Source of the DNA: an uncultured Pirellulaceae bacterium
GTDB taxonomy: Bacteria > Planctomycetota > Planctomycetia > Pirellulales > Pirellulaceae
Direction of reading: 5' to 3'
NCBI GenBank assembly: GCA_938083195.1
Contig: CALKCK010000004.1
Span: 124,001 to 188,000 of the forward strand
Length of the DNA: 64,000 nt
Shown: positions 47,267 to 51,443 of the stretch, one piece after another
How the letters are laid out: the number at the start of each line of letters is the position of its first letter
Position numbering within the stretch: the stretch's first letter is position 1
Translations under genes and position numbers: made by a program
The notes under the pieces: generated by a model
What the model was told of the DNA's origin: nothing
Seen by the model: the letters and a program-made list of their open reading frames with translations, nothing else
Databases searched by the model: none

Positions 47267-48085
47267 TTAGTGAGTCTCCGGCGGTGTCTGATCCCTTCCA
47301 TTATTGTCAATTGCGTCAACTTGCCGTTCGGGTTCGAGAATCGTGACTGATTTAATGAGATCGATATTTTTGAATCGATTTAGAATGTAGTCGTTACCTT
47401 GTTTCTTAAATTCCGCTTGAACATTTTCATTCTTTGGATTTTCGCCATACTCAGTATTTATTTTCTTGAGTACGGATTTACCAGTTTTGATCTCTGCAAA
47501 AGGGACAAATGGGCTACCTCCACCAGGTTGCTCGCTGTCTAGCATTGTATTCAGTCCAAGGTTGCAGAACATTTGTACGGAACGACTGTTGGGGTGTGGC
47601 GTTTGCGCAAATGAGAGTGTCCCTGGCGTATTCTTTTTTCCTTTTGAGGGGTCGTCTGGAAATGTCGAATTTCGCCAGGCGGCATTGACTGCAGGGTCGC
47701 CATGGATTCCGAATTGAAACATGAATCCTTCCATGGCTCGGAAAATAGCGATATCACTTTCAAAGTATCCAACTTGGATCATGTTATAGAATCGGTCGGC
47801 AGCATGAGGTGCCCAATCCCGATGAACGGTGATCGTAAAATCCCCTTTGGTAGTTTCGAATTTGGCGTCAAAGATTGATGGGGCGATTGCCGTTGCTAAC
47901 TCTGGTTTCAAAAGTGCTGGATTAAGAGCGGTGGAAGTGTTCGTCAGCGCTTTTGGGTTTAGTCTTAATAAATCGAAATGTTTAACCCGTCCTTTAGTTA
48001 CGCAACCTAATTGCGAGCTTATAAAACTGACTACCAATATCAAAAAAAGCGTGCTTGACCAAAGCTGTTTACGATACATTTCCAT
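47267..48085 (-). CDS. Peptidylprolyl isomerase, cyclophilin type (lipoprotein-like)
   Basis: TTKGDFTITVHRDWAPHAADRFYNMIQVGYF; GTLSFAQT; MFCNLG; lipobox-like SSQLGC after the TM segment. Confidence 0.9.
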   Translation of the reverse strand: MEMYRKQLWSSTLFLILVVSFISSQLGCVTKGRVKHFDLLRLNPKALTNTSTALNPALLKPELATAIAPSIFDAKFETTKGDFTITVHRDWAPHAADRFYNMIQVGYFESDIAIFRAMEGFMFQFGIHGDPAVNAAWRNSTFPDDPSKGKKNTPGTLSFAQTPHPNSRSVQMFCNLGLNTMLDSEQPGGGSPFVPFAEIKTGKSVLKKINTEYGENPKNENVQAEFKKQGNDYILNRFKNIDLIKSVTILEPERQVDAIDNNGRDQTPPETH

Positions 48086-48450
48086 CTTCCTTGAATTGCT
48101 GCGGGGCTTCAACGCGGTTGACTGCAGAAAGCTGTCACGTCGAACGTGCTGGGAAGATAGCAAAAGCTGGATTGGGAACCAATGTCGAGTTTTCGTGAAT
48201 ATGCCCACCCTCTTTGGGGGGAGGACATGCGGGCCACAAATTACAGGCGAGAGGAGGGAGGAACCGTGTTTTTTTGGGGGCAGATTGAGAGTTTTAGTGG
48301 TTTTTCCTGAAAAGCCCCATTCTGGTTATCTTCACTGGTAATCAGTGAAATTTGCTTTTTATCTAAGACCTCCTCCTGATTTGTGAGCTAAGCTTTTGTG
48401 ACAGGAATCCGCAGCCTGCGTTTATACAACACATTGAAGAGAATACTCCG

Positions 48451-48564
48451 ATGGTTGGAAAACGACGGTTATCTTCGATTGCCGCGCGTTTCCATGTAAA
48501 GTTGATCCTTGGGGTGAGACCCCCAAGGGTCAGTTTTACGAAATATTTGGTTGATTTAATTTAA
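48451..48564 (+). CDS. Possible 37-aa small protein (MVGKRRLSSIAARFHVKLILGVRPPRVSFTKYLVDLI)
   Basis: ATG...TAA in an otherwise empty gap, with an intrinsic terminator 6 bp after the stop in the same orientation. No good SD seen. Confidence 0.25.
   Translation: MVGKRRLSSIAARFHVKLILGVRPPRVSFTKYLVDLI
48496..48539 (+). other. Strong RNA hairpin (19-bp helix, 6-nt loop)
   Basis: gtaaagttgatccttgggg-tgagac-ccccaagggtcagttttac. Fully paired as plus-strand RNA with three G-U pairs, which become A-C mismatches on the opposite strand. Confidence 0.7.
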
Positions 48565-48569
48565 AATGA

Positions 48570-48603
48570 AACAAGCCGCTCAGGTGAGCGGCTTGTTTTT
48601 TTT
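48570..48603 (+). terminator. Intrinsic terminator oriented on the plus strand between two minus-strand genes
   Basis: acaagccgctca-gg-tgagcggcttgt followed by a long T-tract (ttttttttt). Confidence 0.85.
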
Positions 48604-48647
48604 GTGGTCCCGCGCGAAGCGTCACCTGTTCTAAATCTCGTCGGAAA

Positions 48648-51443
48648 CTACTTGTCGCTAGATTCCGATTTTGCCTTGTTAAAGTCTCCCGCTGTAATGA
48701 TCAGCAATCGATCTGGGTTGATGACTTTCTTCATCGCAGCATCGACCTGTTCTTTGGTTAGCGTAGAGATTCGATCATCGCTTGCATTTTGAAATTCCAT
48801 GGTTCGTCCTGTTTTCATGTTAGACAGAAGCTCGCCAGCCAGCTGTCCGTCACGCGCCCGGCCGCCCCGACGATTGATAAGAAAGCTTTCTTTTGCCTTT
48901 TGCAATTCATCGCCGGTGACGCCACTCTCAAGCATGCGGTCGACTTCTTCTTTGACGGTCTCGACGACTTTTTCAGTATTCATTGGATTTGAAATACAGA
49001 ACATCATGTACATCCCGCGTTCATCTTGATCGTCGGCTTGAAATCGAGTCATTGCGGTATAAGAAAGCCCGTCTTGTTTACGAACTCTATCTGCGATTCG
49101 TGAAGACAAAGGTCCGCCCCCCATAATGTAGTTGCCGATCAGCATTGCTTCATAATCAGGGTGGTTTTCATTGATATCAGTCGCAACGCCCGCAATGTAA
49201 ATTGCATTGGCCTTATCCGGTGTGTCCAGATTGACACGCTCCGCTTTGATATCGAGGTTGGCTGGCTCTTCAATTCGTTGGTAAGGCATTTCTGTCTTCC
49301 AGCCATCAAAGACTTTATTTAATTCTGCGAGTGTTGTGGTTGGGTCAAAATCACCGACCACCGCAATTTCACCGAACTGACCGTTGAGGAATTTCTCTTG
49401 GAGGTTTCGTACATCGTCAATATTAACATCTTTCAAGCTTTTAACTTCTTCTTCCATCGTAGGTGTGTATCGCACATTGTCGGCAGGTTGTGGATCCATT
49501 CGGCGAGAGAATTCATTAACGGCAAGGCTCATTGGGTCGGACATGCCCGACTCGATTCCAGTCACCATTTCACTCTGAATAATCTCCATGTCGCTCGGAT
49601 CCAGTTTTGGCTCTCGGAGTGCTTGCCGCATGATGGCGAGAGCTGGAACTAAATTTTTCCGTTCGGTTTGGAGATTGAAATTCAAGGTTCCCAAAGATCC
49701 GCTGAATCCAAGGCTTGCTTTAAGATTATTCAAAGCGTCTTGGTACTCTTGGAAACCTAGTTCTTTGGTTCCACGAGAGAGTAATTGCGGAAGCAAATCA
49801 GCCGCTGCCCGTTTACCTTTCAAGCTATTTTCATCGCCGTAGTGGATGGTTCCACTGAGCGTCACGCGATCTCCTCGAGTCTCTTTAGGGAGTAATGCGA
49901 ATTTCATTCCTGACGTCAATTCGCCAAAGGTTGTTCGCTTTTGAATATTCATAGGCGAAGGGTCAAAGGCTTCGCCGGCAGCCATTGCTTCGCGGCCTTT
50001 GTAGTTAGCCACCATTTTTTTGACGTTGTTTTGAGCATCAATGGCAATTCGATCTGTTTCCTCGGATGGGAAGAAAAGACCAACGGTCCGGTTTGATTGA
50101 ATCATATACTTTTTAGCAAATTCCTGTACGTCTGCCTTGGTGACCGCTTCGAGTCGGTCTCGGTGGAGGAAGTACAGTCGCCAATCACCATAGGATTCCC
50201 ATTCACTCAATGCTGTCGCAAAACGTTCTGTGTTGGCAAACTGTTGCTCTCTCCCTTTGGAGATTGCAACCACAGCTCTTTTTACGTCTTCGTCAGAAAC
50301 TCCGTTTGAGCCGATTGATTCCATCTGCTCAACGAGAATGTCCTTGGCTTTGAGCAGGTCTTTGTCGACCGGAGCTTCTGCATAGGCGAGCATGATTCCA
50401 GGGTCATATCCAATTCGGGCAAAGGCACCCGCACTGGTTGCTAACTTGGTTTCCACCAAAGACTTGTAAAGAGGTCCCGATGGTTGGTTAGAAAGAATAC
50501 GGGCAAGCACCTGTGCCGAAGCGTACTCGGTACTAGAAGCGGAGGGAATGTGATAACCAAGCCCTACAAACTGAACGTCGCCCGAGCGTCGCAGGATGAC
50601 CGTTCGTTCACCGTCCTGGGCCGGTTCCTCGGTATAGGTTTTTGGTAACTTCCGTTCTGGACGAGGAATTGAACCGAAGTTCTTCTCGACTAACTCAAGC
50701 GCGAGGTCGTTGTCGAATTTGCCCGCGATTACCAGTGTAATGTTGTCCGGTTGATAATACTTGCGATAGAAAACCCGGAGGTTGGTCGCAGGAACTCGCA
50801 TAATGTCACTTCGATTACCAATGGTTGATTTTCCGTAATTGTGCCATTGGAACGCAGCGGTCATGATTCGTTGAATCAAGATGCCTTGTGGGTTGTTTTC
50901 GCCGCGCTCAAACTCACTTCGCACAATGGTCATCTCTTTTTCAAGATGCTCCGGTTTGATCCAACTGTTGATCAAGCGATCGGATTCCATTTCGATGGCG
51001 AATTTCAAGTTGTCGTTCGCTACTTTCGGGTCGCCGTCGGGTGCCGGAAGTGTTTCAAAGTAGTTTGTTCGGTCGATCGAGGTGGTGCCGTTCATGTTCA
51101 AAACACCTCGGTTCTTCAGCAATTCCGGAATGTCCGGATGTTTATCGGTTCCCCGAAACAACATGTGTTCAAGAAGGTGAGCCATCCCGGACTCGCCGTA
51201 GCCTTCGTGTCGAGATCCGACGTTGACGGTCATGTTCATCGTAAACTGTGGCTTCGAGTTGTCGGGGAACAGTAATAGCTTGACGCCATTATCGAGGCGG
51301 TACTCGGTGATTCCTTCGACTTCGAACATCTTTTTTGGCTCTTGCGCTTCGGTCGTCTGACCGATCATCGCAACGGCTATCAACGCAACGGCGGCTCGAC
51401 AAGCGAACTGCCAAGAATGAGGAAATTTGGAATGTTTGCTCAC
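48648..51443 (-). CDS. M16 family metallopeptidase (insulinase/pitrilysin-like), exported
   Basis: GMAHLLEHMLFRGTD (HxxEH); second M16 domain with IYIAGVATDINENHPDYEAMLIGNYIMGGG; signal peptide. Confidence 0.92.
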   Translation of the reverse strand: MSKHSKFPHSWQFACRAAVALIAVAMIGQTTEAQEPKKMFEVEGITEYRLDNGVKLLLFPDNSKPQFTMNMTVNVGSRHEGYGESGMAHLLEHMLFRGTDKHPDIPELLKNRGVLNMNGTTSIDRTNYFETLPAPDGDPKVANDNLKFAIEMESDRLINSWIKPEHLEKEMTIVRSEFERGENNPQGILIQRIMTAAFQWHNYGKSTIGNRSDIMRVPATNLRVFYRKYYQPDNITLVIAGKFDNDLALELVEKNFGSIPRPERKLPKTYTEEPAQDGERTVILRRSGDVQFVGLGYHIPSASSTEYASAQVLARILSNQPSGPLYKSLVETKLATSAGAFARIGYDPGIMLAYAEAPVDKDLLKAKDILVEQMESIGSNGVSDEDVKRAVVAISKGREQQFANTERFATALSEWESYGDWRLYFLHRDRLEAVTKADVQEFAKKYMIQSNRTVGLFFPSEETDRIAIDAQNNVKKMVANYKGREAMAAGEAFDPSPMNIQKRTTFGELTSGMKFALLPKETRGDRVTLSGTIHYGDENSLKGKRAAADLLPQLLSRGTKELGFQEYQDALNNLKASLGFSGSLGTLNFNLQTERKNLVPALAIMRQALREPKLDPSDMEIIQSEMVTGIESGMSDPMSLAVNEFSRRMDPQPADNVRYTPTMEEEVKSLKDVNIDDVRNLQEKFLNGQFGEIAVVGDFDPTTTLAELNKVFDGWKTEMPYQRIEEPANLDIKAERVNLDTPDKANAIYIAGVATDINENHPDYEAMLIGNYIMGGGPLSSRIADRVRKQDGLSYTAMTRFQADDQDERGMYMMFCISNPMNTEKVVETVKEEVDRMLESGVTGDELQKAKESFLINRRGGRARDGQLAGELLSNMKTGRTMEFQNASDDRISTLTKEQVDAAMKKVINPDRLLIITAGDFNKAKSESSDK

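Follow-up and report, generated by a model that had tools for sequence, protein, structure and literature searches.

Comparison with described small RNAs

The seeds of base-pairing small RNAs (sRNAs) are mostly single-stranded and sit at the 5' end of the molecule. Within a window of 64,000 nucleotides (the whole stretch of DNA analysed, from an uncultured Pirellulaceae bacterium), we characterized an element that shares the layout of trans-encoded base-pairing sRNAs, such as the Enterobacterial Hfq sRNAs: it is intergenic, stand-alone and shorter than 200 nt, and it possesses a conserved single-stranded 5' region, hairpins and an intrinsic terminator with a T-tract. It differs from the Enterobacterial Hfq sRNAs in being restricted to one Mariniblastus clade, in having a candidate target only, and in residing in genomes with no detected Hfq gene. 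Hfq (PF17209) was absent from 10 Mariniblastus genomes, the assemblies of which are incomplete, with control genomes positive, which suggests that the RNA would act without Hfq or with another chaperone.

The best near miss over the whole element is the trpB ncRNA motif (RF04312; 31.2 bits, E 0.018), which likewise comprises a hairpin, a linker and a terminator hairpin. However, this score lies far below the gathering threshold of 59 bits, at about half of it; the shared features end at hairpin and terminator and do not extend to conserved letters, and the relatives tested gave no match. The element is also similar in length to 6S RNA (RF00013), but it forms three separate hairpins instead of a long rod with a central bubble, and has no covariance-model match to that family; no match to the same Rfam model was detected in 10 Mariniblastus genomes, control genomes again being positive. 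Over the window and its relatives, nothing reached an Rfam gathering threshold, the weak matches being terminator hairpins or chance, and a literature search retrieved no report of this Mariniblastus RNA. We class the element as a new family within an established kind, the intergenic small regulatory RNA with a terminator.

Genomic context and conservation

The putative RNA gene occupies the gap between the genes of a cyclophilin and an M16 peptidase in all eight carriers, which share the gene order scpA, cyclophilin, RNA, M16 peptidase (Table 1). The carriers are eight related marine Mariniblastus (planctomycete) genomes that form one clade, with a support of 96/96 in a tree of the C-terminal part of the M16 peptidase. 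In a DNA search of related genomes, 8 of the 28 Mariniblastus genomes carried the element and no genome outside the genus did; sampling the order more widely added no further carrier, and phages and plasmids gave no match. In IMG/VR, 16-mer matches were at about chance level, and the covariance model gave nothing convincing. Covariance-model matches below 35 bits in other genomes were rejected as look-alikes of the terminator hairpin.

The alignment across relatives, which the preliminary description had proposed as a check, revealed conservation of the element in all eight genomes. The block 48443-48600 has a mean pairwise difference of 6% between genomes; the intergenic DNA on either side of the core differs by 46-47%, the four-fold degenerate sites by 51% in the M16 gene and 47% in the cyclophilin gene, and the whole M16 coding sequence by 15%. 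Conservation has sharp boundaries, one at 48443 and the other where the T tract ends. A candidate gene had been placed at 48367-48603 before; the conserved unit is shorter, with an extent of about 48443-48606. The moderately conserved block further upstream may be a promoter or regulator site that serves either the RNA or the divergent cyclophilin gene. The ~45 poorly conserved bases between this block and the RNA (48398-48442) evolve at a neutral rate yet keep their length. At the cyclophilin gene, the mechanical ORF (47267-48208) begins with a GTG at 48208; relatives L003 and L008 begin at the ATG equivalent to 48081, and a start there gives the protein a lipoprotein-like signal peptide (..SSQLGC).

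Table 1. Features of the putative sRNA locus in window coordinates
Feature	Coordinates	Strand	Basis
Cyclophilin-type peptidyl-prolyl isomerase, likely lipoprotein	47267..48081	-	PF00160 and ORF
Upstream block, moderate conservation	48347..48397	.	Mean pairwise difference 23%, versus 44-46% on either side
Conserved small RNA core (5' end unmapped)	48443..48606	+	90-96% identity in 8 genomes; sharp edges
Invariant 5' tag ATACTCCGATGGTTGG, proposed seed and/or transcript start; may overlap -10 element	48443..48458	+	Invariant in 8 genomes
37-codon ORF, rejected as gene	48451..48564	+	Broken or run-on in 6/7 relatives
Hairpin H1, three short helices and bulges	about 48456..48494	+	Consensus fold
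Hairpin H2, 19 bp, loop GUGAGA	48496..48539	+	Fold; 98.7% of cells paired
A/U-rich single-stranded linker, 3' half variable	48540..48567	+	Alignment
Intrinsic terminator, 14-bp stem and T8	48568..48603	+	Stem invariant in 8 genomes, variation in loop only
M16 family peptidase, convergent with RNA	48648..51443	-	PF00675, PF05193

Predicted secondary structure and probable strand of the RNA

Compared with 200 dinucleotide shuffles, the plus strand of 48367-48610 gives a fold that is better by 6 standard deviations (-90.7 versus -61.8 +/- 4.8 kcal/mol). The consensus fold consists of three hairpins; the final one, followed by eight T on the plus strand, forms an intrinsic terminator. Two of these hairpins had been recognized in the preliminary description and hold up in detail: H2 comprises 19 pairs, including three G-U pairs on the plus strand, and the plus-strand terminator has a 14-bp stem (48568-48599), a 4-nt loop and a T8 tract. 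The third, H1, was missing from that account. All 14 pairs of H1 are kept in the eight genomes, with two changes, both to G-U on the plus strand; H2 shows one G-G mismatch (G003), one lost end pair (G018) and nothing else, and the terminator stem has no change at all. Taken together, the three hairpins keep 99.5% of cells paired across the eight genomes. Variable columns lie mostly in bulges, loops and linkers, accounting for 26 of the 60 unpaired columns compared to 8 of the 110 paired ones (Fisher p = 9e-8).

The consensus fold is also more stable on the plus strand than on the minus strand (-64.3 versus -57.5 kcal/mol), with four versus eight broken cells, and the two G-U changes of H1 would become A-C mismatches on the minus strand. 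The better fold and these changes together point to an RNA on the plus strand. As for covariation, which had likewise been proposed as a check, no two-sided covariation was found at any pair among the eight genomes, the stems being too conserved for the test, while the pairing itself is kept. The data agree with the three-hairpin structure and favour it, short of proof by covariation. Terminator-like sites of a generic kind are no more frequent in the area than expected (3 found versus 4.2 expected); it is because of the comparative evidence that we take this terminator to be more than chance. The eight-genome conservation and the placement of substitutions thus strongly support the earlier proposal of a structured sRNA that is encoded on the plus strand and has its own terminator. 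By contrast, a leader-type element, suggested as another reading, is unlikely, since the plus strand 3' of the element is the antisense of the 2.8-kb M16 peptidase gene and offers no gene just downstream to control.

The 5' tag in a distant relative

In the more distant genome G021, the cyclophilin of which is ~53% identical, TACTTCCGATGGTTGG occupies the equivalent position, but the hairpin and the terminator behind it differ (loci L077, about 2588-2690, and L106, 1497 onwards). By our estimate, the odds of meeting this 15-letter run by chance in the 0.7-kb gap of G021 are roughly a few in a million, and the covariance model gives a full-length match at the locus (21.6 bits, E 0.0014 in 100 kb). 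The RNA body of G021 looks as if it had been replaced behind a kept 5' tag. Because the tag survives in G021 while the hairpin and terminator sequences differ, the tag is, on this comparison, the oldest part of the gene. The G021 terminator (AAAG..GGGG..CCCC..UUUU) resembles H2 of the clade, a likeness suggesting that H2 may be a former terminator. The tag is absent from G024, both in the syntenic gap, which was read, and in the family-wide pattern search. Outside the genus, the tag pattern occurs at chance level (9 matches versus 8 for the reversed control), mostly in coding-like sequence.

Proposed function and candidate target

The element is very probably a non-coding RNA. The plus-strand gene is predicted to yield an sRNA of ~150-160 nt that ends at its own Rho-independent terminator. 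Its invariant, mostly unpaired 5' tag CUCCGAUGGUU would pair with complementary sites AACCAUCGGAG at the ribosome-binding sites of mRNAs and block translation of these targets, and the stable hairpins H1 and H2 would give the RNA protection and might also be bound by a protein. A stand-alone, trans-acting antisense sRNA that uses the tag as its seed is the best explanation overall and, its transcription being predicted, somewhat probable; that it is a base-pairing regulator acting through the tag, with a putative mechanism and seed, we consider an evenly balanced proposition.

The complement of the tag, AACCATCGGAG, includes a Shine-Dalgarno-like GGAG. A candidate target is the Shine-Dalgarno region of a gene for a 217-residue membrane protein, which is complementary to the tag in all seven carriers in which the start of the gene is assembled. 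In G008, G022 and G017, AACCATCGGAG lies 11 bases before the ATG; in G000, G007, G019 and G003 the site reads AACCGTCGGAG or AACCGTTGGAG, and the only changes, A to G and C to T, keep G-U pairing. The run is absent in relatives without the RNA, and also in G021 despite its tag. Conservation of the site constitutes weak evidence because the whole 5' UTR of the gene is conserved. We sampled 448 kb with 343 genes of the window's genome as background; 2 of the 343 genes score at least as well as the candidate in contiguous pairing, and 24 are at least as good in duplex energy. As its site does not exceed chance, the gene is a doubtful candidate for the actual target.

Querying for target sites with the tag's reverse complement gave 43 matches, of which 8 are the RNA itself; the reversed control gave 12, but a word containing GGAG should be enriched at ribosome-binding sites anyway. 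Among these matches, just two orthologous groups turn up repeatedly, and one of them is antisense to its gene. The 217-residue protein (L161, G000:C9:201919-202569) has no Pfam match and occurs in 23 of the 28 genomes of the genus, and the 5' UTR of its gene is unusually conserved in the RNA-bearing clade. In G008, G017 and G022, it follows an AGCS-type symporter gene, which, from our reading of its sequence, we take to resemble the AGCS sodium:alanine symporter.

Alternative interpretations

A small-protein gene or dual-function RNA had been suggested for the 37-codon ORF, which is indeed present in the window with a frame open back to 48367. Across relatives, however, the ORF runs into a TAA at codon 4 in G019 and G007; in G018 it is interrupted by a TGA at codon 7, and a 1-nt deletion shifts its frame; in G017, G008 and G022 it lacks an earlier stop and reads through the terminator. 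A second plus-strand frame, ..ILRWLENDGYLRLPRVSM (48384-48499), stays open in each of the eight genomes, NTG starts lying upstream and compensating indels keeping the frame; but in the window a TAA occurs at its codon 3, counted from the aligned GTG, its peptide is not conserved over the first half, and only 1 of its 6 variable core columns is synonymous (hand count). Three peptides from the element had no Pfam match, and the variable sites are better explained by RNA structure. The openness of the second frame is probably chance, with small residual doubt, and a protein-coding or dual-function gene in either frame is exceedingly improbable. Hardly more credible is the reading that the locus is only a bidirectional terminator, or the 3' UTR of the minus-strand M16 peptidase gene, with no plus-strand transcript. 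In keeping with this reading, the stem of the terminator has near symmetry, is located 49 bases past the stop of the M16 gene, and is picked up on the minus strand as well. Against it, sharp-edged conservation continues for 125 bases past the terminator, the T tract lies on the plus strand, the minus-strand fold is poorer, and the G-U changes fit the plus strand only.

More weight attaches to a protein-binding or sponge RNA, the invariant hairpins of which, chiefly H2, would bind or titrate a regulator or RNA polymerase, although we still judge it unlikely. The stems make up most of the conserved length and are almost invariant, including the three G-U pairs of H2, and 6S RNA was not found by the Rfam model in these genomes. 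The tag would then be a promoter or start sequence instead of a seed. A sigma-70 promoter search found no clear sigma-70-like site; besides the upstream block, a candidate promoter element is a weak -10-like RATACT (48442-48447) at the tag itself, and the upstream edge of the tag coincides with the edge of conservation. On the other hand, the fold lacks a 6S-like central bubble, reading of the sequence found a single GGA and no known array of protein-binding motifs, and G021 retains the tag and not the hairpin sequences, a pattern suggesting that function resides in the tag. More speculative, and improbable in our view, is an RNA family in which the short 5' tag would be kept over long distances while hairpins and terminator are replaced, being either a modular Hfq-free sRNA or an RNA that binds a protein and stands in for the 6S RNA, which was not detected in these genomes.

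Implications for planctomycete RNA biology

Only 8 distinct Rfam sRNA families are recorded for the PVC group, compared to 345 in Proteobacteria (PMC9029176), and the element described here would add a new RNA family in a phylum with very few known small RNAs. Current annotation omits this gene, the DNA of which changes more slowly than that of the protein-coding genes beside it (6% versus 15% in the M16 gene). As a well-supported candidate from a genus with no detected Hfq or 6S RNA, it may offer a concrete way into the question of how base-pairing sRNAs operate there, if they do so at all.
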